Part shown: positions 4,464 through 52,260 of the stretch, piece by piece | Position numbering within the stretch: the first letter of the stretch is position 1 | Layout: each line of letters begins with the position of its first letter | NCBI GenBank assembly: GCA_016793885.1 | Contig: JAEUHE010000123.1 | Coordinates: 1 to 64,000, forward strand | Direction: 5' to 3' | Length of the DNA: 64,000 nt | From: Verrucomicrobiales bacterium | GTDB lineage: Bacteria; Verrucomicrobiota; Verrucomicrobiia; Limisphaerales; UBA11320 | Notes under the pieces: generated by a model | Database searches by the model: none | What the model was told of the DNA's origin: nothing | The model's input: the letters and a program-made list of their open reading frames with translations, nothing else | Program-made: the position numbers and the translations under genes

Positions 4464-7400
4464 TCACGGAATGATGGAACCATCAATCAATTCCAGACCT
4501 TTCAGCGTTTTTACCGCCAGCCAGTTTCCGTTTTGCGAAAACCGTATTTCTCGGGCCGGATTGGTCAGGCGTTGGAATGAGATAAGTTCCTGTTGGGTAG
4601 GCACGTTCCAAAAGCGCAGGGTGCTATCGTCGCTCACTGAAGCGAGGGTTTCACCCTCCGGTGCAAACGCCAGCCAACGAATTCCTTGCGTGTGTCCCCG
4701 GCAAATACCGAGCAGTTTTCCGGTTGTAGTGTCCCAAAGCCGGATTGCATTTTCCGGGTCGTTGACCGCCTCAGAGCCGGCGGCCAAAACGCCACCATCG
4801 TGCGAAAGCGCTAGTGCGGCAGTAACACTATAGGCAACCCCCATTGAGAACTCCGCATTTCCTGTGCGTGTTCTCCCGTCCCAGCGTTCGAATGACTTAT
4901 CAAGCAGTGTGACGACTACTCTGCCGTCCCCAGAAAAGAGCGCCGCTTTTCCAGGAAGGCGCATGGGTGGTTCTGCGCTCTCGCGCAAATTCCACCACAA
5001 AAGCGAATCTTTCTTACCGGCGGCAACGAAGCTTGAACCGTCCGGGGAAATGAGAGCCCATGACCTGACAATGTCTGGATTGGCCACGTGAACGGATTGC
5101 GTCGTCTGTAAGTCCCAAATACGAAATCCACTCGCGATTGGTTCGACCAGCACACGGAGGTCTCCACTGATTGCCGGAGCCAATTTTCCTGGGGAAACCT
5201 TGCCCAATTGCAGCAGCGTCTCGGGCTCCCCGGTTTGGAGATTGAATGCGACAACCTTTGAATCGTCATCAATGGCAACCAGAGTTTCACCGTTGCTGGA
5301 GAATCTTAGGGGCATCCAGTCGCCTTCATAGAAGGTCTCCTTCGTGACTGGATTGATTGGCCACCGCCGAACTGTGCCATCTTTACCGCCCGTGATCACG
5401 GCCGCACTATCGGGTGCGTAGGCCAAAGTCCAGATCTCGGAAGGGTTCCCGTGGAGCGTCTTCACGCGCTGCCCGGTTTTGAAGGACCAAATGCGCACGG
5501 AGTGATCCCAGCTGGTAGACGCCAGCAGTTCTCCGCCCGGAGCAAACGCTAACTCCGCGATGGTACCCGTGTGTTCGATGGTGTTCGACTGGGGTGGGAT
5601 GCTGGTGGCTTTTTCTCCTGTTTCGGCTGCCCAAACGTCGAGAACGAACACGCTGTCGTTCTTAAGCGTGTTTCGAGCGGCGACGACCGATTGTCCGTCT
5701 GGAGAGAAGACTAGAGCAGTCCGGTCGCGCATCCAGTAGCCGGAATGGTTGAAGACGCCCTTAGAATCCTTGAACAAGCGAAGGGTTGTAAGGGTCTCCA
5801 AATCCCATAGGAGAATCCCCTCACGGGTATCTACCGCAATGGCATTACCAGTTGGGCTCAATGCAAACGGCGGCATGCTGTTAGGAATCTCGGCAACGAG
5901 TTTGCCGGTGGAACTGTCCATAACCCGGATCCCTCCCCGTGAATTTGCCGCGAGCAAACGCCCGTCGCGGGAGAAACCAACCGGCGCCGAGCAGTTTGTT
6001 AAGGAAAGTGTCTCAGTCCAATCTGAAGATCGCCACACCCGCACACTGTTCTTTCCTGAGGTTGCAAGCAACCCACTGGAGGATAAGGCGACGGAATTCC
6101 CAGGTTTCGCCAAAGCCATTATTCGCTCGCCAGTTCTCGGACTGTAGATGTTCACTACATTTCGCAGACCCACGACGATCAACTCCGGCGAGGCGGCGAG
6201 TGAAAGGACGCTCGACGTCTCTCTGGCAATAACTTGGTGGTGATCGTCCTCCGCGGCATTCCAGAGATATCTCCATTCAAAACGCTTTTTCCCTTCGGGT
6301 TGGTGCCTGGCGAGGAGCTCTTTTGCCCGAGACAAGTTTCCACCGAGAATTGATTGATGGGCCAGATTGACATCGGCCACATACTCATTCAACTCAGCCC
6401 GAGCCTTCAGTTGGATAGCGGATTCGCGCTCCCGCTCGGCATTCATGCGCAGAACTGCTTCACGCTTCCGTCCGTCCTCCGCGCGCCGTTCTGCGTTTGT
6501 CGCTCGTAACGCCTGCCATCCGCTGACCAGCGTTCCAGCGACCACCACCAGGAAAACTGCGGCAGCAGTCACAAATGCTGTGCGGTGGCGTCGAAAAGCT
6601 TTTTGGAACCGATAGGCAACACTTTGTGGACGTGCGATGACAGGTTCATGAACGAGATACCGCTGGAGATCCTCGGCAAGTTGCTGTGCAGTCGCGTAAC
6701 GTCGGGTGCGGTCCTTCTCGAGACATTTCATCACGATCGAATCGAGATCGCGTTCCACACGCATCGGAGCCGGTTGTGTTGGGGTTTCAGCGACGATGCG
6801 TCGCAACCGAGTCGAAGGGGTGGCAGGCTCGACTTCCTGAATCATGCGTCGCATCCCATCAATGCCGGAGTGAGTCAGTTCCTTTCCGTCCAGCGGCGTC
6901 ACACCTGTTAACAACTCGTAAAGTAAAACTCCGAGCGAGTAGATGTCGCTGCGCGTATCCACATCCGACCCTGTCATCTGCGCCTGTTCCGGGCTGGTGT
7001 AAGCCGGAGTTCCGAGGAACGCATGGAAGTTGGTGAGAACCGTCTTTTCGGTGAGGGGCTCCTCGATCGCCTTCGCAATTCCGAAGTCAATTACCTTGGG
7101 AGCGGCTTGGCCATCCTGGATGGTTACGAGGATGTTCGAAGGTTTGAGATCACGATGGATTATCCCCTTCTGGTGCGCATGCTGAATCGCGTGACAGAGT
7201 TGGATAAAAAGTTTCAGGCGATCTTCAAGAGGCACCTGATTCACAGCGCAATACTCTGTAATCCGAACGCCACGAACCAACTCCATGACAAAAAAAGGAC
7301 GACCCATTTTCGTCGCGCCGCCATCCAGCACACGGGCGATACTCGGATGATCCATAAGCGCTAACGCCTGCCGCTCCGCTTCAAATCGAGCCACAACGCT

Positions 7401-7763
7401 CTTGGTGTCCATTCCTACACGGATCACTTTGAGTGCGACATGGCGGCGAACGGGTTCGGTCTGCTCTGCGCGATAAACGATGCCGAACCCTCCTTCACCG
7501 ATTTTCTCGACAATTTTGTAGCGTCCGATGCAGTCGCCTATGCGCTCCTCACCCGAGATCAGTGTCCCGTCGGTTTCCATGGAATCCCGCAGAAGCGTAG
7601 CTACACCCTGTTCCAGAAATCTGTCCCCCTGGTCGTTGGCCATCAGGGCTTCCACTGATTCTTTGAGCTTCGGGTCGTGAGCAGTCAAGCGAGCCACAAA
7701 AGCGGCCCGAGCCTCGACTGGCTGTTCTAAAGCCTGCAGAAAGATTTCGCGTTCCTCAGTCAT
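4464..7763 (-). CDS. Ser/Thr protein kinase with transmembrane helix and WD40-like repeats
   Basis: This is a Hanks-type kinase, about 1099 residues from the chosen start. The kinase domain covers about 82-370, with a GEGGFG glycine loop, invariant lysine in VALKVI (about 112), HRDLKPSN (203-210), DFG (226-228) and a GTPAYTSPEQA activation segment. One membrane helix lies near 397-415, then a short coiled region, then an extracytoplasmic propeller of degenerate WD40 repeats to the end. The start at 7763 (MTEERE...) is preferred over an upstream ATG at 7808 because family members begin with this short helical head. It follows the ECF sigma gene, the usual arrangement of the sigma/kinase pairs of this phylum, so the kinase may control the sigma factor. 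Confidence 0.9.
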   Translation of the reverse strand: MTEEREIFLQALEQPVEARAAFVARLTAHDPKLKESVEALMANDQGDRFLEQGVATLLRDSMETDGTLISGEERIGDCIGRYKIVEKIGEGGFGIVYRAEQTEPVRRHVALKVIRVGMDTKSVVARFEAERQALALMDHPSIARVLDGGATKMGRPFFVMELVRGVRITEYCAVNQVPLEDRLKLFIQLCHAIQHAHQKGIIHRDLKPSNILVTIQDGQAAPKVIDFGIAKAIEEPLTEKTVLTNFHAFLGTPAYTSPEQAQMTGSDVDTRSDIYSLGVLLYELLTGVTPLDGKELTHSGIDGMRRMIQEVEPATPSTRLRRIVAETPTQPAPMRVERDLDSIVMKCLEKDRTRRYATAQQLAEDLQRYLVHEPVIARPQSVAYRFQKAFRRHRTAFVTAAAVFLVVVAGTLVSGWQALRATNAERRAEDGRKREAVLRMNAERERESAIQLKARAELNEYVADVNLAHQSILGGNLSRAKELLARHQPEGKKRFEWRYLWNAAEDDHHQVIARETSSVLSLAASPELIVVGLRNVVNIYSPRTGERIMALAKPGNSVALSSSGLLATSGKNSVRVWRSSDWTETLSLTNCSAPVGFSRDGRLLAANSRGGIRVMDSSTGKLVAEIPNSMPPFALSPTGNAIAVDTREGILLWDLETLTTLRLFKDSKGVFNHSGYWMRDRTALVFSPDGQSVVAARNTLKNDSVFVLDVWAAETGEKATSIPPQSNTIEHTGTIAELAFAPGGELLASTSWDHSVRIWSFKTGQRVKTLHGNPSEIWTLAYAPDSAAVITGGKDGTVRRWPINPVTKETFYEGDWMPLRFSSNGETLVAIDDDSKVVAFNLQTGEPETLLQLGKVSPGKLAPAISGDLRVLVEPIASGFRIWDLQTTQSVHVANPDIVRSWALISPDGSSFVAAGKKDSLLWWNLRESAEPPMRLPGKAALFSGDGRVVVTLLDKSFERWDGRTRTGNAEFSMGVAYSVTAALALSHDGGVLAAGSEAVNDPENAIRLWDTTTGKLLGICRGHTQGIRWLAFAPEGETLASVSDDSTLRFWNVPTQQELISFQRLTNPAREIRFSQNGNWLAVKTLKGLELIDGSIIP

Positions 7764-7814
7764 TTGATGGCTTTCGGTATTAAGCCGGAATAACAGGCGC
7801 AAAAGCAAAGCCCG

Positions 7815-7829
7815 GCCCGCAAACTTTTT
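7815..7829 (-). promoter_or_regulatory. Second copy of the shared 15-base motif
   Basis: This is identical to the motif at 4363-4377. It overlaps the stop codon of the ECF sigma gene and lies 51 bases before the kinase start at 7763. It is a candidate promoter element internal to the sigma/kinase pair. Confidence 0.35.
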
Positions 7830-8403
7830 AGCGGCGCGCGGGCATGGAAATCTGTCGGCCGATTTGGCGTCTCAACCATGCTCGCGCATACGTCCAGATT
7901 GCCTCGGTGCTCCTCAAGGGGATTCCCAAGGTCGAGGCGGCCTCGGTCATGGTCATACCCGCAAAATAGCGCAGTTTAACCAGATTCGCCGCAGTTGGAT
8001 CCTCTTTTGACAGGGCTTGGAGAGCCTCGTCAACTGCGAGTAGTTCTTCGGAAGGACCCTGATCGACCCAGTGGTCTTCCTTAAGCTGCTCAGCTGAGGC
8101 CCCACCGCCACGCTTTGCCGCCTGCTTCCGGCGGGCTGAGTCTACAAGAATTCGGCGCATGGACTCGGCAGCTGCGGAGAAAAAGTGCGCTCTGTTCTCA
8201 AAGTTCGGATCGCCGTCACCAACCAGTCGGATCCAAGCTTCGTGCACCAATGCCGTCGGCTGCAGCGTATGCCCCGACGCCTCTCCTGCCATCTTCTGGG
8301 CGGCAATCCGCTTCAGCTCCGTGTATACGAGTGAGAGTAATTGCTCCGCGGATTGCTGCTTACCATCCCGGATCTCGCCCAGAATTCGTGTCACTTCGGA
8401 CAT
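7828..8403 (-). CDS. ECF-family RNA polymerase sigma factor
   Basis: This 191-residue sigma factor is of the type often paired with Ser/Thr kinases in Verrucomicrobiota, Planctomycetes and Acidobacteria. Region 2 is seen as LQPTALVHEAWIRLV and FFSAAAESMRRILVD, followed by the KRGGG linker. Region 4 is VKLRYFAGMTMTEAASTLGIPLRST. There is no anti-sigma gene next to it; the downstream kinase is the likely partner by context. Its targets are unknown, but the repeated motif before the kinase and PQQ genes is a candidate recognition site. Confidence 0.92.
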   Translation of the reverse strand: MSEVTRILGEIRDGKQQSAEQLLSLVYTELKRIAAQKMAGEASGHTLQPTALVHEAWIRLVGDGDPNFENRAHFFSAAAESMRRILVDSARRKQAAKRGGGASAEQLKEDHWVDQGPSEELLAVDEALQALSKEDPTAANLVKLRYFAGMTMTEAASTLGIPLRSTEAIWTYARAWLRRQIGRQISMPARR

Positions 8404-8647
8404 ATTTGCTCCTCAGAGGGGCTCTGGTGGAAAGAAAGTGCGCGTGGGGTGCATAGAAGGATCTTTAGAATCTGAACGGGCGAATGCGATCACATTCTCA
8501 TGATGCCTTTATTCATCTCATGCAAGTTCTCCAAGGACAACTGTGCAAACTCCCTCCCATTAAGCGCCGAAGGATCGTGCGCTCGGCCTACCTCCTACCT
8601 GGCAGCGCTCCGAGCTAATTCGTTGTCCAGCGATTGCTAAACACTCA

Positions 8648-8820
8648 TTTTACGGGCACCAAAACGGGCACCAAATGGTTCAGTTGGGTTAGGTTGAGTT
8701 CAGATCAGTTAGCTTGATTTCCTTAGTAAAATGAGACATTTTGGCCTCGTTCGAAGGTCGTAGGCGGACGATTCCGACCCTCGCCTCCAAATTTTCGCAC
8801 AGAGCGAAAATTTGCCACGC
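8648..8820 (+). repeat. Direct repeat shared with 29378-29547, with conserved hairpin
   Basis: This segment begins with a doubled ACGGGCACCAAA unit and ends with a perfect hairpin, AAATTTTCGC / GCGAAAATTT. It is nearly identical to 29378-29547; the hairpin stem is conserved while its loop differs (acaga here, tac there). A stretch ending in CGCCTCCA just before the hairpin resembles the 3' end of a tRNA or tmRNA, as left by integrase-mediated insertion, but no complete RNA gene is present. Confidence 0.7.
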
Positions 8821-9280
8821 CGAAGCTTCAGCGCGAAGGCGGGCTTCCGATCCCCCCTACCTACTCGGAACTGCGGAAATGTCCAGGCGGACTACCTCAG
8901 CCCATATCCCCTCCGCAAAAATTCGCCACGCCTTAGCTCTGAGTCTGCCCTGAGCTTGTCGAAGGGAAAGCGGGCTAGCAAGGTCCCTCCCCACCCCCAA
9001 CATTCCAAGCCACTAAGCTCGCTTCCCTGTCTCCGTCGCTACTGCTAACAGACATCTCCCTGCCCGCCCGGAACGTTCGATTCTCAGAGTAGATCTGAGC
9101 CGAGTCAGCACCCTGCTCGCCTCCAACCTTCCCGAAGTTCTCCGCAATCGCATTGTTCATTTACAGGATAATCCGCAGTCAGCCCAGAATGTGTTGCATT
9201 CATTTCTTCCTGCAAACGTTTGGATAAACCGCCGATCGCTTCCTGCTCGGCTATCGGTATCTGATTCAGGGCCGGACCAC

Positions 9281-9310
9281 CCCGTTCACAACCCGTTCAC
9301 AACCCGTTCC
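9281..9310 (+). repeat. Short tandem repeat, 11-base unit
   Basis: The unit cccgttcacaa occurs twice in a row, followed by a partial third copy, directly before the transposase C-terminal remnant. It probably marks a replication-slippage or junction site. Confidence 0.6.
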
Positions 9311-9312
9311 GG

Positions 9313-9624
9313 CAGGCCCTGACATGTGCTGAGGTTGAGTCTCTGAAATTCGTTCCACGGTCGCCCAACTTGAGCGCTTACGCGGAACGCTTTGTTCGTA
9401 CCATCCAAGAGTCGTGTTTGGATAACCTGATCTTGTTTGGCGAATCGTCCTTGCGAGAAGCTGCTTCTCAGCTCGTTGAACATTATCATCAGGAACGAAA
9501 CCACCAGGGACTCGAGAATAAAATCATCCGGCCTGAGTTCGAGGAGTTCCCCGCAGAAGGATCGGTGCACGGTCGTAAAAGGCTCGGCGGCCTTTTGAAC
9601 TACCACTACCGAAAAGCCGCATGA
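9313..9624 (+). pseudogene. Transposase/integrase-core C-terminal fragment
   Basis: About 100 codons encode the end of an integrase-core (rve) transposase: RSPNLSAYAERFVRTIQESC, HYHQERNHQGLENKIIRP and the terminal GGLLNYHYRKAA. The catalytic aspartates upstream are missing, so this is the distal part only. A close copy sits at 29891-30217. There is no convincing start or ribosome binding site. Confidence 0.8.
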
Positions 9625-9940
9625 AAATCGCCTCGTTCGAATTTGTGGACACTGGGCTACAGGCTCAGCAAACCGCCAGTCCTCACTCAACACCTCCTTG
9701 AGAGTTCTGGAGTCTTCCTAAGTACAGTAGGGCCAACCATCTCCTTGCACCGAGCAATCCGTTGGGTGGTTCGCGACCAGTTCTTAACTCAGGGCGAGCA
9801 TAGTCCGTTGACCTAGCGGTTTCTATATCCAGAATTCGCGCCACTACTCATAAGTCACAGCCAACGCACGGCCGACTTTCTCGATCAGAGACCTCGGTGC
9901 TGCGAGGTAATAGACTGAAACCACATGAACCACGAAATCT

Positions 9941-23611: not shown

Positions 23612-25951
23612 TCATTTTTTGAGACTTCTCAGGGGTGCCGGATCACCTGCGAGTCTAGGCGCCAACACCACACGGAATCCGAATGTGTTCCCTGGTTGGG
23701 TGTGGACCCAGCCAAATCGATACGCGCAGCGGAACCGCGCGGGATCCTGATCGATGGCCGAACCGCCTCGTGCGACGTACTTATCGCCCTCCCGATCGAT
23801 GCACATTTCATTTACGTTGCCATGCATGTCATACAGGCCTGCGATGTTGGGGAACTTAAGTCCAACCGGCTTAGTAGCGGCCACGTTAACCCACGCATAA
23901 GTCGGAAGTTCCTCTGGAGAGTCCCCAAAGCTGTAAATGTCGTCGGTGCCAGCTCGACAGGCATACTCCCACTCAGCTTCAGTGGGGAGGCGGAACTCGT
24001 AATCCTCACCCAACTCGTGATCGATTCGATCTCGTTCTAGCTCCGTGAGGCGGCGACAAAAGGCCATCGCTTCCTTGTAGGTAATGGTTTCGACCGGTCG
24101 GGATAAAAGCTTTCCGTAATCAATTGTTTGTCGGAGACGCTCAATCCACCGTCTTCCGTAATAGAATCCAGGGGCTCGCCTTTGCTCGGTGATGGCCCGA
24201 TACTCTCCTTGGGTCACCTCATACTTACCCATCCAGAACTGTCTCGGGATGTCGACTTTGATCGGCGGGATCTCGTTCTTAGCGGCGTTGGTGTCCGCGA
24301 GTGAACTCCCCATATGAAGGCTTCCGGCAGGGATGCGTACCAGGGATAGCTGGTTTGATTCAACCGTCCATTCGTTCGTGGGGGAGAAATCCTCGGAGTC
24401 GATTTGCTTCATTTTGTCCCTTAGGAATAGCGCACATTCCAACTCTCGCTGAGTCTTCAATTTCGTACTTAATTGGCTCGCACTGGAGTCGGTGATGTTC
24501 GCAGTGGCAGAGTTAACATTCCAGGCGGAGGAGGCCACCTGGTTCGCCCAGGTTCGAATCTTCTTGAGGCCTGCGAGCCTTGAAAGTCGGTATTGTGAGT
24601 TCCAGCTTGCGAGCGCCCTTTCGATGCCGCCTGTACCGGGGGTTTTGGCTTCCTCCGTCTGGATGATGTTCGCCAAGAGTTTGAAGTCGGGAGTAGCAGT
24701 TGGCCGAAGGTTGTAGGCGAGCACGGCCAAGGCGAGACCGAAAACGAAGACTGCTAGCAGGTTTCTGATGATCCTCTGAGGCCTTTGCAGTAAGTCCAGA
24801 AGCATTAGCGCTTCGCGGAGGTCGGTAGCTTTCACAATCGGAACCCGCGTAATAGGTTCTCTCCAGATATTAACATTCGGTTTATCCTTCGGATATGTGA
24901 GCGTGTCGAATGATTGCCCAAGCGCCACGACGAATGTGTTTACACAATGACCTGGCTCAGACCTCAGTGAACTCGGCGCAACAAATTTCAGCGATGAGGA
25001 GGCCAAGGTGGGGCTGCGTGAGAATTCTTTGGACTTCCTGATGCCTGTCACAAACTTGCGGAAGAAGCATGCGACTGGGTAGAAGCGATTACCTTCGTGG
25101 TTCCCTTGCTGATCGAGGCCGCAAGCTGTGACAGCCACTCCTTTAAAATCGATGCGCCGCAATTGAGGGAACTGGTGGTGAACCGCATCTCGGTCGATTT
25201 TACCTACTGCTCGTAAAAGTAGCAACTGGAGCTGGCCGCACCATGAATCACCCGCCAAGCACCTCTCCCATTCAACACCTGGTGGCAGGGTGACTTGATA
25301 TCGAAAGTCATAGTCGCTTGGTAGCAGGTTGGAATCGGCAAGGAATTGGATCGCGAGCTTCTCTGCTTCGTTCCACCGAACATCGGTGCCGAGTAGAAGT
25401 AACGCAGGAGCACGCCAGATTTGATGAGCGATGTTCAGCCGGGCAGCAGAGCCCTTTGGCCTGGGCACAAAGTCAACCGTAAGCATCGCAGCGATGTCCC
25501 CGCTTGCGGCTGTGAAAAGAATCGGGCCGCTAACGCTCAGTTTGCTTTGAATGGTGCTGGGCTCGACGGAGGAGAGCAATGTGGCATCCAAACGGAGGGC
25601 TGTAAGTTCTCGGTGAATGTCGTATACCTGCCCAAGTGGGAGGCGACGGGCATTCGCTACCTCAGGAAGAGCAGATTCGGGCGAAGCGCCCGTGTGGATA
25701 ATTCGTGCAACTTCGAGGAAGGCGGTCGCAGCTTCCCTTACTTGGATGTTGGGAAAGTAGGCTTGGAGGAAGTCATTCCCTGGCAACTGAAATAGGTCGC
25801 GTTTTTCGTCCCGTAGCCACTCTACACAAGCCGTTAACCAAACTCGGTCGATCGGGCTTCGAAGATAAGCGTCGGTGATAGGATCAGCGGCGGCGGCATT
25901 CTTGGGTTTGCCGCAAGTTTCCCAGATGGACATCAGGATTTCAAAATTCAT
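23612..25951 (-). CDS. Membrane-anchored protein with C-terminal FGE-sulfatase-like domain
   Basis: This 779-residue protein is the last gene of a three-gene unit. Residues 1-125 are helical and unassigned. Residues 130-310 weakly resemble a Lon-like (S16) fold in order of motifs: FTAASGDIAAMLTV, then LAGDSWCGQLQLLLLRA, then GVAVTACGLDQQG. One membrane helix follows at about 394-414. The C-terminal FGE/SUMF domain (about 538-767) is clear: RIPAGSLHMGS, FWMGKYEVTQGEYRAIT, RLPTEAEWEYACRAG, LYDMHGNVNEMC. The cysteine pair needed for formylglycine formation is not preserved (ARGGSAIDQDPARFRCAYR has one Cys), so the domain probably binds a ligand rather than catalysing. It follows the HEAT/beta gene by 11 bases. 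Confidence 0.75.
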   Translation of the reverse strand: MNFEILMSIWETCGKPKNAAAADPITDAYLRSPIDRVWLTACVEWLRDEKRDLFQLPGNDFLQAYFPNIQVREAATAFLEVARIIHTGASPESALPEVANARRLPLGQVYDIHRELTALRLDATLLSSVEPSTIQSKLSVSGPILFTAASGDIAAMLTVDFVPRPKGSAARLNIAHQIWRAPALLLLGTDVRWNEAEKLAIQFLADSNLLPSDYDFRYQVTLPPGVEWERCLAGDSWCGQLQLLLLRAVGKIDRDAVHHQFPQLRRIDFKGVAVTACGLDQQGNHEGNRFYPVACFFRKFVTGIRKSKEFSRSPTLASSSLKFVAPSSLRSEPGHCVNTFVVALGQSFDTLTYPKDKPNVNIWREPITRVPIVKATDLREALMLLDLLQRPQRIIRNLLAVFVFGLALAVLAYNLRPTATPDFKLLANIIQTEEAKTPGTGGIERALASWNSQYRLSRLAGLKKIRTWANQVASSAWNVNSATANITDSSASQLSTKLKTQRELECALFLRDKMKQIDSEDFSPTNEWTVESNQLSLVRIPAGSLHMGSSLADTNAAKNEIPPIKVDIPRQFWMGKYEVTQGEYRAITEQRRAPGFYYGRRWIERLRQTIDYGKLLSRPVETITYKEAMAFCRRLTELERDRIDHELGEDYEFRLPTEAEWEYACRAGTDDIYSFGDSPEELPTYAWVNVAATKPVGLKFPNIAGLYDMHGNVNEMCIDREGDKYVARGGSAIDQDPARFRCAYRFGWVHTQPGNTFGFRVVLAPRLAGDPAPLRSLKK

Positions 25952-25962
25952 GTACTAGGCGG

Positions 25963-27159
25963 CTAAGTATTGGTCTCGATGATGAAATCGATTCGGCATT
26001 GGCTCGCCTCTATCGCGGACACCGGCAGAATGACCTTGCAAACACAGGCGTTCAGATCGGCTATGTAAGCAAGCGCGGATGAGGCGGTCTTACCGCCGCA
26101 GTGAATGCTTACCTTGGCTTGATCCATGTCACGCGATAAGGCTGAAAGACTAACACATATGCCACTGGAGTCGGCTGAGATCGTCGCGACTTGAAGTCTC
26201 CGATCTGCCGGTTGCACGAAGAATGATTCGGTCTGAGGAGCAGCGGAGAAGGACCTTTGGTGCGCGCTTTCGCCAAGTTCCGCAAACAGCGGCTCGCAGT
26301 CCAACGACGGAACGCTGAATAGGTGTTTTCGATCTCTTTTATCATTCAAGTCGAGGGCTGGCTGGCATCGAAATCTTCCTGTCCGCAGCTCGACCCATTT
26401 GCTCGCGGCCTCAGCACTGATGGCTTCAATCTCTATGTCGACGTTGTCGGCACTGCTGCCTCTGCAGCGAACTTGCCAGTGACGGCCATGAATCTCATGT
26501 GAGAGTTCGACGCGGGAGGTAACCTGAATATTGGTGAGCAGCGACCGCAATTCGAGCTCAGGCGTGGAAAGCAAGCAAAGTCGGCACCGGACATCACCTG
26601 GGAGAGCAGGAAACACGAATTCCCCCCGGGCATCGGCGACGCGTTCGATGAGATCAAAGGCACCACTTTCGGACATGAGACCAAACTGCAAACCAACGAA
26701 CCAGGCTGCTGGAATCCTAGTTGAGTGTATTAGCGAAATGGCCTGATTCGCCATCTGACGTACCCAAGAGCTATCATCCTCCAGCTGAATCTTTCGCAGA
26801 TTGGGCTCAGAGTCTGGGAGGCCAAGTTGACCCAATCGCTGGCAGGCTGCTGCACGTTGAAATTCCGTCTGAGCCGAGAGATCCCGAAAACAAAGTTTCT
26901 GCATGTCCCTGGCCCCTTCCAAGTCTAGGTTATCCATCGCTGGTGGAACCGCAGTGGATGATATGCGAGCCCTTAAGGTGTAGAGTGTTTTGGTTGTAAC
27001 CTGGCAGCGACTATGAGGCACCGGTATCACCTGTAATGCCACAGACGCAGAAGACCAAAAGTACCCATCCTGAACGGCGAAGGTGGGGGTTGTAAGAAGT
27101 GCCTGCAATGTCTCTTGGCCAAGCAGATAGTGGATGCTAGTGGTTTCTTGGTGTCCCAT
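25963..27159 (-). CDS. Unrecognised protein with HEAT-like segment and beta domains
   Basis: This 398-residue protein has no confident family. An N-terminal beta region is followed by a short HEAT/armadillo-like helical segment (about 85-147; FQRAAACQRLGQLG... SSWVRQMANQAISLI). Next is a transthyretin-like beta stretch (DARGEFVFPALPGDVRCRL) as seen in carboxypeptidase-regulatory domains, and then more beta strands. There is no signal peptide or membrane helix. The start is uncertain: ATG at 27159 or at 26937 (MDNLDLEG), neither with a good ribosome binding site. It lies between two operon partners with gaps of 37 and 11 bases, which implies a shared function. Confidence 0.65.
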   Translation of the reverse strand: MGHQETTSIHYLLGQETLQALLTTPTFAVQDGYFWSSASVALQVIPVPHSRCQVTTKTLYTLRARISSTAVPPAMDNLDLEGARDMQKLCFRDLSAQTEFQRAAACQRLGQLGLPDSEPNLRKIQLEDDSSWVRQMANQAISLIHSTRIPAAWFVGLQFGLMSESGAFDLIERVADARGEFVFPALPGDVRCRLCLLSTPELELRSLLTNIQVTSRVELSHEIHGRHWQVRCRGSSADNVDIEIEAISAEAASKWVELRTGRFRCQPALDLNDKRDRKHLFSVPSLDCEPLFAELGESAHQRSFSAAPQTESFFVQPADRRLQVATISADSSGICVSLSALSRDMDQAKVSIHCGGKTASSALAYIADLNACVCKVILPVSAIEASQCRIDFIIETNT

Positions 27160-27196
27160 AAGAAAAGATCGCGTGTTACTCTATTTTATATGGATG

Positions 27197-28933
27197 TTAG
27201 CCAGCTCGGTGGCGGTGAACCCAGGAAACAAAGTCTTGGAGGATATATTCCGCAGTCGTGCGGCTTGATCGGAACGCATTTGGTACGAAAGATTGAAGTG
27301 ATGTTAAGAAGAATTGCAGTTCATCAAATATATGTGGAAAGTCGGGGCAGGGCGCATGCTTGCTGTGCCGAGAGTCTAACTCGGAACGAAAGGATTTAAC
27401 CTCCGGTTCAGCTGGTCTGATGCTCTGCCAGTGAAGTTTCCATGCCCTCCAGAGCAGCAATATGTTCAGGTCCTCAAGTTCCGATTCGCACCACTGGTGT
27501 GCATGTGCGATGCCACCTATGGACCGTTGGTCCCCCGCCGGACCATAAAGTCCATTCGACAGTGCTTCGACCTTGTCTTTATCCAGCGGATTGGATCGAC
27601 ACCAGATCTCGCAGGACTCGTCCCAGAATAAGGGTGGCTTGATGTCATCATGGTTGCTTACGTCTTCGAGATTTGCGGATAACGGGCTGGAGATACTCAC
27701 CTTCGCAAAGCCAGTTAGGATTTGGAGTGTCAGAGCTCTAGAGGAAAAGGTTTTGCGCGGGGTTCTGCAGTGGCTGAGAGGGCATGCTGAAGTCGTATCC
27801 GGATAGAGGTTGCCGCATCCCTCTGCCTTGCACTTGTAGAAACCCGCAGCTTCGTATGCGCCATAATGATGTGTGGCGAGATACAGGCGAGCCTCTAGCG
27901 AGATAACTTTATGCGCTGCAGGGTCAAAAACGACCCCGCACTTCCGGCAAAGAGCGCCGTCACGCTCTTTGCCGCAACATGGGCAAAGCCAGCCTGCGAC
28001 GCTCCCAAGGCGAACGCCGCAATTTAAATACAGCCATGTGGAGTATAGGCCTTGATAGAACTGGTTGCCGCCAAATAGTTGACCTTCGGCCCGGATGGGA
28101 CCTTTAACCGCGTTCAGGATGCGGTTCTGCAGCGTAGCGATAGTAGGATCCCATCCAGTCAACGGATGTTGGTGCAAACAGCGCTCACGCATCGTTCTGG
28201 CCGCTGGATCTAAGGGTTGGTCAGGATCACAAACACGCCGACGATAACAGATGCAGCTGCCGTTGATCAGCCAGTTGGTGATTTCGGAGGCCCTTAGCGA
28301 GAGAGAATCGATCAAATCGCAGCCTGGGGTTGATTGGCTTAACTTTCGATCAGACTGGGATAACGAGGATGGGGCTCGGCCGGAGAGCACTTCTGCCAGG
28401 CCGAATACTGGGAGAGTCAAGAGCCAGGAGTCAGAACGAAGCAGTGCCTGACGAACTCGACGTTCGACTTCGGCAAGTGCGAGCGGCCATATAGAAGGCC
28501 AACCAGAACCTTGATCAAGCACTCGGTGCCAACCGACGCCGTAAGCGATAACGAGATCGTCCGCCAATCGCTGAAGGGGAAATCGCTCATAGGCAGTGGA
28601 ACCTATAAACTCAGCTACCAGCAAGACCAGCGAATCGACGACTGTGGGGGGAAAATCCTCACTCGGCCCGAAACGGGCGAGCGCGTCCGACACGGCGTCG
28701 CGAATTAAGGAGCTCATACCAATACCCTGCCAAGGTTGCGCTATGCCAACATTGACGGGAAGGAATTGCGTCAATGTCGAAGGCAGCAACGGTGCGGACA
28801 CGTGGAAGGAAATAGACTGACATCCAAGTATCGAACGGCAAGACCGAAGTCGCAGCAGAATCAGGGGCAACCACTCCGCACAGGAGAAGCTTAGGAACGC
28901 CTTTCCAGCTAATGCATGTGAGATAGAGTTCAT
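27197..28933 (-). CDS. Unrecognised cysteine-rich zinc-ribbon protein, first gene of a three-gene unit
   Basis: This protein has about 578 residues from the ATG at 28933, which is preceded by a near-ideal ribosome binding site (GAGGAG, five to six bases away); the longer frame to 29017 is rejected for this reason. The N-terminal 300 residues are helical and unassigned. The middle holds a zinc-ribbon-like segment, CPCCGKERDGALCRKCG, and a second cysteine/histidine cluster, CKAEGCGNLYPD...CPLSHC. The C-terminus is helical and tryptophan-rich. There is no secretion signal. A nucleic-acid-binding or scaffold role is possible because of the zinc ribbons, but this is not shown. It heads an operon with the HEAT/beta and FGE-like genes. 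Confidence 0.7.
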   Translation of the reverse strand: MNSISHALAGKAFLSFSCAEWLPLILLRLRSCRSILGCQSISFHVSAPLLPSTLTQFLPVNVGIAQPWQGIGMSSLIRDAVSDALARFGPSEDFPPTVVDSLVLLVAEFIGSTAYERFPLQRLADDLVIAYGVGWHRVLDQGSGWPSIWPLALAEVERRVRQALLRSDSWLLTLPVFGLAEVLSGRAPSSLSQSDRKLSQSTPGCDLIDSLSLRASEITNWLINGSCICYRRRVCDPDQPLDPAARTMRERCLHQHPLTGWDPTIATLQNRILNAVKGPIRAEGQLFGGNQFYQGLYSTWLYLNCGVRLGSVAGWLCPCCGKERDGALCRKCGVVFDPAAHKVISLEARLYLATHHYGAYEAAGFYKCKAEGCGNLYPDTTSACPLSHCRTPRKTFSSRALTLQILTGFAKVSISSPLSANLEDVSNHDDIKPPLFWDESCEIWCRSNPLDKDKVEALSNGLYGPAGDQRSIGGIAHAHQWCESELEDLNILLLWRAWKLHWQSIRPAEPEVKSFRSELDSRHSKHAPCPDFPHIFDELQFFLTSLQSFVPNAFRSSRTTAEYILQDFVSWVHRHRAG

Positions 28934-29146: not shown

Positions 29147-29296
29147 ATGAATCCGTTGTCGTTTCTGCTGTTTTACTTTGCTGGGTGGATGAACCGCCAC
29201 CGCCGACAGCAAGCCGCCATCGAATACCTGCAGGAAGAGTTACGAATTCTCCGGGAGCAATTGGGCAAACGTCCTCCCTTTAAGGATCCCCAGCGC
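29147..29296 (+). pseudogene. Transposase N-terminal fragment
   Basis: About 50 codons match the opening of integrase-core transposases: a hydrophobic start, then NRHRRQQAAIEYLQEELRIL, REQLGKRPPFKDPQRRR. The frame then runs into the inserted repeat block and loses similarity. The distal half of the same gene type lies 600 bases downstream. Confidence 0.7.
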
Positions 29297-29377
29297 CGAA
29301 GGACCGTGTGCTTCTCTTGCCTCCTTACTCCCGGCGCTTCGAGTGAAGGCGTTGTCCCTAGATTTCTAAAGACTCAA

Positions 29378-29547
29378 TTTACGGGCACCAAAACGGGCAC
29401 CAAACGGTTCAGTTGGGTTAGGTTGAGTTCAGATGAGTTAGCTTGATTTGCTGAGGAAAATGAGGCATTGTGACCTGGTTCGAAGGTCGTAGGCGGACGA
29501 TTCCGACCCTCGCCTCCAAATTTTCGCTACGCGAAAATTTGCCGCGC
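29378..29547 (+). repeat. Direct repeat shared with 8648-8820
   Basis: This block begins with the doubled ACGGGCACCAAA unit and ends in the AAATTTTCGC-tac-GCGAAAATTT hairpin. See the copy at 8648. A separate inverted repeat, CCCGCTGC (29773-29780) with GCAGCGGG (29796-29803), lies further right inside relic B and has no counterpart in relic A. Confidence 0.7.
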
Positions 29548-29890: not shown

Positions 29891-30217
29891 ACTGATCAGT
29901 TCCGAGAGACCTTGAAGACCGCTGGAGTAGAGTCCCTGAGCCTCCCCGTGCGGTCACCCAACTTGAATGCTTATGCGGAGCGTTTCGTGCGTACGATCAA
30001 GGAGTCGTGTTTGGACAACATTATCCTGTTTGGCGAGTCGTCCTTGCGAGAAGCAGTTTCTCAGTTCGTTGAACACTATCACCAGGAAAGAAACCACCAG
30101 GGGCTCGAGAACAAAATCATCCGACCTGAGTTCGCGCAGTTCCCAGCGGAAGGATCGCTGCATCGTCGCAAAAGGCTCGGCGGGCTCTTGAACTACTACT
30201 ACCGACAAGCCGCATGA
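29891..30217 (+). pseudogene. Transposase C-terminal fragment
   Basis: This fragment encodes TDQFRETLKTAGVESLSL, PNLNAYAERFVRTIKESC and the terminal GGLLNYYYRQAA of an integrase-core transposase. It is better preserved than the 9313-9624 copy. The catalytic core upstream is absent, so it is inactive. Confidence 0.8.
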
Positions 30218-49430: not shown

Positions 49431-50216
49431 ATGAAAGCGCCGCCCAAGCCCAAACTCGCCGTGTGGAAGTTCGCCTCGTGCGACGGCTGCCAGTTGAGTC
49501 TGCTCGATTGCGAGGACGAACTGCTCGCGCTCGCCGGACAGGTTCACATCGCGAACTTCGTTGAAGCCTCGCGCGAAGTCGTCAAAGGCCCCTACGACCT
49601 GTCTCTCGTTGAAGGCTCCATCACCACCCCGCATGACGCCGAGCGCATTCACCAGATTCGCCGGGTCTCGAAGCACCTCGTCACCATCGGCGCGTGCGCC
49701 ACGGCGGGCGGCATCCAGGCGTTGCGCAATTTCAAGGACGTGAAGGAATTCACCGCCATCGTCTATGCGCGGCCTGACTACATCTCCACGCTGGCGAAGT
49801 CCACGCCCATTGCCGACCATGTGTTCGTCGATTTCGAGCTGCGCGGCTGCCCGGTGAACAAGCACCAGTTAATCGAGGTTATCAGCGCCTTTCTCTCCGG
49901 GCGCAAACCGAACACTCCGCCGCACAGTGTCTGCATGGAGTGCAAGCGGCGCGGCATCGTCTGCGTGATGGTCGCGCATGGTACCCCGTGTCTCGGCCCC
50001 GTGACGCACGCGGGTTGCGGTGCGCTCTGCCCGGCCTACAACCGCGGTTGCTACGGCTGCTTTGGCCCGAAGGAGACACCGAACACCGGTTCGCTTGCGA
50101 CATGGATGGGCCACATCTTGCACGTCACAGAGCCGGACCTGGTGCGCGCCTTCCGCACCTATAACGCCGGCGCGGAAGCCTTCCGCAAAGAAAGCGAGGC
50201 GCATGAAGAACACTAG
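49431..50216 (+). CDS. hydD: Group 3b [NiFe] hydrogenase small (delta) subunit
   Basis: This protein of about 261 residues carries the proximal iron-sulfur cluster. It begins [20 protein letters not shown] with the typical CxGCQ motif. It continues with [16 protein letters not shown] and [16 protein letters not shown], then a cysteine-rich C-terminus ([38 protein letters not shown]). There is no twin-arginine signal, so the enzyme is cytosolic. It overlaps the large-subunit gene by 14 bases. Confidence 0.93.
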
Positions 50217-52260
50217 AACCATCAAAGTGGATTACCTCGCCCGCGTGGAGGGCGAAGGAGCGCTGCTCATTAAAATCAAGGGCGGGGTCGTGACCGACGT
50301 GAAGCTCAAGATTTTTGAGCCGCCGCGGTTCTTCGAGGCGTTCCTGCGCGGACGCGATTTCCGCGAAGTGCCCGACATCACCGCGCGGATCTGCGGCATC
50401 TGTCCCATCGCCTATCAAATGAGCGGGGTTCATGCGATGGAAGATGCGTGTGGCGTGACGCTGGGCGGCCCGTTGCGCGCGCTCCGTCGCCTCATCTATT
50501 GCGGGGAATGGATCGAAAGCCACACGCTCCACATCTACATGCTGCACGCGCCGGATTTCCTCGGCTACGAGAGCGCCATCCACATGGCCAAAGACCACGC
50601 GGCCATCGTGCAGCGCGGCTTGCAGTTGAAGAAAGTGGGCAACCAAATCGTGTCCACGGTCGGCGGGCGCGAAGTGCATCCGGTCAACGTCCGCGTCGGC
50701 GGCTTCTATCGCGTGCCTACCAAACATGATCTCGCGCCGCTGGCCGAGCGGCTCAAATGGGCGCGCGACGCCGCGCTCGAGACCGTTCGCTGGACGGCGC
50801 AATTCGGCTTCCCCGACTTCGAGCAGGACTACGAGTTCGTCGCGCTCCGGCATCCCGACGAATACCCGTTCAACGAAGGCCACATCGCGTCGAATCGCGG
50901 CCTGGACATCGCCGCCCGCGACTACGACGAGCACTTCACCGAGGAACACGTCGAACACTCCAACGCGCTGCACTCGGTGCTCAAGGAACGAGGCGCCTAT
51001 TTCGTGGGTCCGATGGCGCGTTACAGCCTCAACTTCGACCGGCTCTCGCCGCTCGCACAGAACGCCGCGCGCGAAGCTGGTCTCGATTCGGTGTGCCGCA
51101 ATCCTTTTCGGAGCATCATCGTTCGCTCCGTCGAAGTGCTCTGGGCCTGCGACGAAGCCCTGCGGATCATCGAGAATTACGAGCCGCCGGACGCGCCCTC
51201 GGTCGAGGTCCCGCCCCGTGCCGCCACGGGCTACAGCGCGACCGAGGCCCCACGGGGTTTGCTCTACCATCGCTACCGCCTGGACGAGCAGGGGCATATT
51301 CTGGACGCCCAAATCGTGCCGCCCACGTCGCAAAACCAAAAGACCATCGAGGACGACCTCCGCCGTTTCGTGCCGCCGCGCGCGAGCCTGCCGACTGACC
51401 AACTCACCTGGCAATGCGAGCAGGCCGTCCGCAATTACGACCCGTGCATCTCCTGCGCAACGCACTTTCTGAAGCTCAGCATCGAGCGTGAGAGCGAAGA
51501 GTCTGCGAGCATGAAGGCCGGACTGCCTGCCCGCACAGAGCCCTCGACCGGGATTCTCCGCTCTGAAGGACGGGATCGGCTGGATCCACTGCCGACGCCG
51601 AGGAGCGTCATCGTTCTGCTGGGCGGACCGGGATCGGGCAAGGGCACCCATGGGCAGGCATTGGCGGCGGCGCTCCGCTACCAGCATCTGTCGTTGGGCC
51701 AGCATCTCCGCGACCACATCCGGCGCGCGACGCCGTTGGGTCGTGGCGCCAGGGAATTCATTGCTAGGGGACAGTTGGTCCCTGACGAAGTGGCGAGCGA
51801 GGCGGTAAGGCCGATGCTCGGCAGCTATTCTTCCGCCAAGGGTTTCGTTTTAGATGGCTATCCGCGCTCCCTGGCACAGGCGGAGGCCTTGGATGCGATT
51901 GTGTCGTCGCTCGGTTGCGTCGTCGCCCAGATCCTCCATCTCGTCATTTCAGATGATGAAATGCTGCGTCGGCTCGCGGGTCGCTTGACGTGCAGGGTGT
52001 GCGGGTGGACCTGTCATGCAATCGCCCAACCGCCAGTCCGGCCCGGTGTGTGCGATGTGTGTGGCGGAGAACTGTTCCGACGCGAAGACGACGAGCCGGA
52101 CACGATACGGCGACGGGTCGCCGTGTTTCATCGGATGATCGGTCCGGTCCTGGATTTCTATCGGAAGTCTGACCGACTAGTGGAGATAGCTGCGGAGGGT
52201 TCGGTGCAGGAGGTGAGCGCCCGGTTAGTCGCACAATCGAGAGGACAATATCCATCATGA
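50203..52260 (+). CDS. hydA: Hydrogenase large subunit fused to adenylate kinase
   Basis: This is one continuous 685-codon frame. Residues 1-430 are the NiFe catalytic subunit: [18 protein letters not shown], the first metal motif [14 protein letters not shown] and the last DPCISCATH (413-421). A normal-looking tail (FLKLSIERE) and a linker of about 45 residues follow, and then an entire adenylate kinase (about 469-685). The kinase has its P-loop [11 protein letters not shown] (474-), [15 protein letters not shown], and a zinc LID with CRVC (597-600) and CDVC (617-620). Maturation endopeptidases cut after the His of the last metal motif, so cleavage here would release the kinase. An in-frame ATG at 51511 could also start it separately. 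A lost stop codon is the alternative. Confidence 0.9.

Follow-up and report, generated by a model that had tools for sequence, protein, structure and literature searches.

Gene layout and setting

We analyzed a window of 64,000 nucleotides (positions 1 to 64,000 of contig C123, forward strand) from a Verrucomicrobiales bacterium. The window contains a minus-strand trio of genes, here called P1, P2 and P3, spanning positions 23612-28933. ORF calling reproduced the three ORFs of the original prediction exactly, with 37 and 11 bases between them. The tight spacing and shared strand suggest that the trio is co-transcribed. The genes and their flanking features are as follows.

8527..9649, plus strand: left IS relic, of the same family and orientation as the right relic and 81-86% identical to it
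23612..25951, minus strand: P3, 779 aa, with an N-domain (aa 1-393), a TM helix (aa ~394-414), a linker and an FGE/C-type-lectin-fold domain (aa 537-762)
24770..25525, minus strand: middle of P3 (aa ~143-394), with a Lon/S16-like motif order seen by eye (LLLLGTDVRWNEAEKLAIQFL, DYDFRYQVTLPPG..GDSWCG, GVAVTACGLDQQG, VPIVKATDLREALMLL); not significant
25963..27159, minus strand: P2, 398 aa, with a HEAT-like segment (aa ~80-150), likely beta-rich in its C-terminal half and free of membrane spans
27197..28933, minus strand: P1, 578 aa, soluble, with probable Zn sites; a possible true start at 28717 would give 506 aa
29041..30253, plus strand: right IS relic, degraded, with an N-terminal fragment (29147-29446) and an rve_3 integrase fragment (29912-30217, E=8.7e-12)

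The open frames of P1, P2 and P3 extend over 606, 398 and 779 codons, respectively, compared with 323 codons for the longest ORF found in 200 block-shuffles of the region. A single strong ribosome binding site had been predicted at the operon head. A strong Shine-Dalgarno sequence (ACAGAGGAGTAGA) is indeed present ahead of the P1 head ATG at 28933, but it may not serve the true P1 start. P1 scores as non-coding over its first 72 codons, so translation may begin at 28717 (MSSLIRD) instead of 28933, and the strong site is perhaps not the true one. The codon usage of P1 and P2 was untypical of the genome, with the coding frame scoring no better than one antisense frame, and P3 was unlike both. 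The usage of P1 and P2 fits young or acquired genes. A promoter scan of the trio returned nothing above chance, and scans of the setting for RNA families and tRNAs found none.

The trio had been described as lying between two IS relics, and both proved to be real members of one family. Some 107 bases separate the P1 ATG from the start of the right relic upstream of it. Partial matches to this IS family occur at ~20 other places in the genome, and more partial copies lie just past the window on the same contig (64209-66066). The same-strand genes downstream of the trio encode FG-GAP and GH42-type proteins, with Ig-domain proteins also present in the surroundings; the neighbours code for secreted or metabolic proteins and include no defence genes.

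Elsewhere in the window, the GC content shifts from ~54-56% to 61-65% at ~30.2 kb, at the right IS relic. The region beyond it (30200-64000) carries genes for universal stress proteins, a P-type ATPase, phosphoketolase/acetate kinase and Hyp/NiFe hydrogenase, among them a 746-aa ORF (50020-52260) predicted to combine a NiFe-hydrogenase large-subunit-type domain with an adenylate kinase domain. At 4464-8403, an ECF sigma factor (PF07638) adjoins a Ser/Thr kinase with WD40 repeats.

Domain content of the three proteins

A motif scan of P1 revealed two four-cysteine clusters, C317-x2-C320/C329-x2-C332 (CPCC..CRKC) and C368-x4-C373/C384-x4-C389 (CKAEGC..CPLSHC). Judged from the sequence, both are probable Zn sites. 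P1 had no match in Pfam, NCBIfam, PADLOC or PHROG. Its weak matches within the order (E 0.004-0.5) were chance-like, falling in short ORFs, in frames with stops or in antisense-like frames.

P2 resembles HEAT-repeat proteins (PF13646) at aa ~80-150. This segment matched HEAT_2 at E=2.2e-4, under the curated Pfam cut-off, and designed alphaReps at E=2.6e-14; the alphaRep matches support the sub-threshold HEAT_2 match. P2 differs from HEAT-repeat proteins in that its match is short and sub-threshold, whereas the other 250 residues match nothing. The second half of the protein gave no above-threshold profile match.

The C-terminal part of P3 (aa 537-762) matched FGE-sulfatase (PF03781) in Pfam with E=1e-40, and by sequence it belongs to the FGE/SUMF1 fold. 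The closest solved structure was that of TvpA (E=6.8e-17), a ligand-binding DGR variable protein of Treponema with a C-type-lectin fold. True formylglycine-generating enzymes carry a copper-binding catalytic Cys pair, CxxxxC. The corresponding region of P3 reads RGGSAIDQDPARFRCAYR with a single Cys742, and the segment after RGGS (AIDQDPARFRCAYR) contains one Cys only. P3 therefore lacks the catalytic Cys pair, and we rejected it as a catalytic formylglycine-generating enzyme. In this respect the domain is non-catalytic as in TvpA, but P3 differs from PF03781 proteins and TvpA in that its domain is joined to a TM helix and to an N-domain of 393 aa without detectable relatives. Unlike TvpA, it also has no DGR template repeat and no reverse transcriptase nearby.

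The hydropathy of P3 peaks at 2.37 at aa 394, marking one strong hydrophobic helix (aa 394-414) with arginines N-terminal to it. Because these arginines flank the helix on its N-terminal side, the predicted topology is that of a single-pass membrane protein, N-in/C-out, which would place the N-domain in the cytoplasm and the FGE domain outside it. No profile matched the N-domain above threshold. The motif, Pfam and hydropathy evidence thus upholds the predicted domain reading of zinc motifs in P1, HEAT repeats in P2 and a membrane-anchored, non-catalytic FGE-like protein in P3.

Distribution and comparison with conflict systems

We searched for relatives of each protein in genomes of the phylum and the order. 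Neither P1 (288 genomes of the phylum, 313 of the order) nor the P3 N-domain (194 and 320 genomes, respectively) had a significant relative outside its own genome, and P2 gave generic HEAT matches only (194 and 313 genomes). P1, P2 and the P3 N-domain were all absent from four same-genus genomes. Exact peptide scans found no P1 or P3 N-domain in GTDB contigs and none of P1, P2 and P3 in IMG/VR; tblastn found none of the three in plasmids and no P1 or P3 N-domain in phages. The genome searches are finite samples, and the contig scans reach only close relatives. The FGE part of P3, in contrast to its N-domain, was matched in 54 of the 58 relatives and eight times within its own genome, where two other long FGE proteins that were inspected have architectures that differ from P3.

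The original prediction depended on the trio co-occurring elsewhere. With P1, P2 and the P3 N-domain all lacking relatives in the searches, the trio has no second occurrence at this search depth, and on this point the result went against it. Given its absence from every other genome searched, the trio looks like a lineage-specific accessory module. Its orphan status and atypical codon use are consistent with a rare module that either arrived recently or evolves fast; recent acquisition is probable.

FGE/C-type-lectin domains are contained in cyanobacterial VMAP ternary systems (PMC7159879), and FGE/CLec domains have been described as DGR-diversified, proposed antigen sensors beside MoxR ATPases, some of them with uncharacterised N-terminal extensions (PMC10907252). 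Like the vWA-MoxR-VMAP systems of these two studies, the trio is a small operon that includes a multi-domain protein with a C-terminal C-type-lectin-fold domain. Unlike them, it has no MoxR ATPase, vWA, VMAP, recognisable effector or DGR. A MoxR-family AAA+ ATPase was found neither in P1-P3 nor in the neighbouring genes scanned, and Pfam gave no match to vWA or VMAP components. No reverse transcriptase lies near the trio; the three RVT_1 matches in the genome are all on other contigs. A search for a DGR template repeat of the P3 3' end yielded short partial matches only, several of them at other FGE genes, and no local repeat, in an assembly that is 95.7% complete. Because MoxR, vWA, VMAP, a nearby reverse transcriptase and a template repeat are all absent, we rejected the trio as a vWA-MoxR-VMAP ternary system and P3 as a DGR target. 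The trio may still act like a sensor module, though not as a member of the VMAP/DGR systems.

Searches against defence models were likewise negative. P1, P2 and P3 had no match to PADLOC models at E up to 1 and included no defence family of Pfam or NCBIfam. In profile searches, none of the three proteins showed an NTPase, nuclease, TIR or peptidase domain or any other effector that could be recognised.

A candidate sensing complex and its alternatives

We consider the chances about even that the trio forms a true accessory operon, specific to the lineage, and encodes a small sensing complex. The outer FGE/C-type-lectin-fold domain of P3 would bind a ligand outside the cytoplasm, most likely as a non-enzyme, and the signal would be relayed inward by the P3 N-domain on the cytoplasmic side together with P2, as HEAT/beta protein, and P1, as Zn-binding protein. 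We infer both the formation of this complex and signalling by P1-P3. The ligand could be a phage or competitor product, pointing to defence, or an ordinary environmental polymer; since FG-GAP, GH42 and Ig-domain proteins surround the trio, an ordinary environmental ligand is at least as likely. The sensing operon is favoured by the tight co-oriented spacing, the likeness to TvpA, the single Cys, the TM helix, the orphan status, the codon use and the same-family IS relics on both sides. Against it stand the lack of a second trio, the absence of relatives and weak coding signal of P1, AF2 pLDDT values below 36 and the null promoter scan.

A less probable explanation, which still carries appreciable weight, is that three unrelated lineage-specific orphans lie side by side by chance in an IS-disturbed region. 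P3 would then be an FGE-domain envelope protein of a sort common in the phylum, with a divergent N-terminus, and there would be no three-part system. The commonness of FGE proteins among the relatives and within the genome, the failure to find the trio in any other genome searched and the weak, atypical codon signal of P1 and P2 all agree with this explanation, whereas the short gaps and shared strand, which suggest co-transcription, argue against it. We regard it as unlikely that the trio forms a hitherto unrecognised module for anti-phage or self/non-self conflict, in which the FGE-like domain would sense an antigen and P1/P2 or the P3 N-domain would supply the adaptor and effector functions. 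The published VMAP systems (PMC7159879) and proposed antigen sensors beside MoxR ATPases (PMC10907252) offer precedents, and the IS flanks, orphan status and atypical codon use are consistent with it. However, P1-P3 match no PADLOC model and contain no recognisable effector, MoxR, vWA and reverse transcriptase are missing in and beside the trio, and the neighbours are not defence genes. The conflict-system reading is therefore possible but unsupported. The sensing or conflict module originally proposed is partly supported: the domain reading and IS-flanked setting stood, but the searches gave no defence-family match, no relatives of P1, P2 or the P3 N-domain and no MoxR, vWA, VMAP or DGR reverse transcriptase here.

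Still more improbable is that P3 is a membrane-bound, ligand-gated protein of Lon-like (S16) protease fold, in which binding outside would activate the cytoplasmic domain to cleave P2 or P1. By eye, the motifs and the predicted strands and helices of aa 143-394 follow an S16-like order, and hhalign, unaided, set LLLLGTDVRWNEAEKLAIQFL...VTLPPG..GDS in that order. Tests of this region with profiles derived from LonA, ComM and PDB entries, with hhalign and with a glocal profile of our own gave no significant support for an S16 core. Pfam gave no Lon_C match at a maximum E-value of 10, and the hhalign score lay under those of shuffled controls. The glocal profile reached z=1.65 against shuffles, and 109 of 505 real fragments, which include some true Lon pieces, scored equally high. 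GDS is present, but FFRK stands where the catalytic Lys would be expected, making a Ser-Lys dyad doubtful. With a mean pLDDT of 35.6 for whole P3 and 31.8 for its middle domain, the AF2 models are unusable. Least probable of all, and very unlikely, is a new type of membrane-anchored system for conflict or signalling, with an extracytoplasmic lectin-fold sensor controlling a Lon-like protease-fold domain in the cytoplasm, whose targets would be a HEAT adaptor and a Zn-binding partner.

FGE/C-type-lectin domains are abundant in this order. The trio is one unreplicated case and serves mainly as an orphan locus flagged for rechecking as genomes of the lineage accrue. If it is a functional unit, FGE/C-type-lectin sensor proteins would gain an NTPase-free, membrane-anchored architecture.
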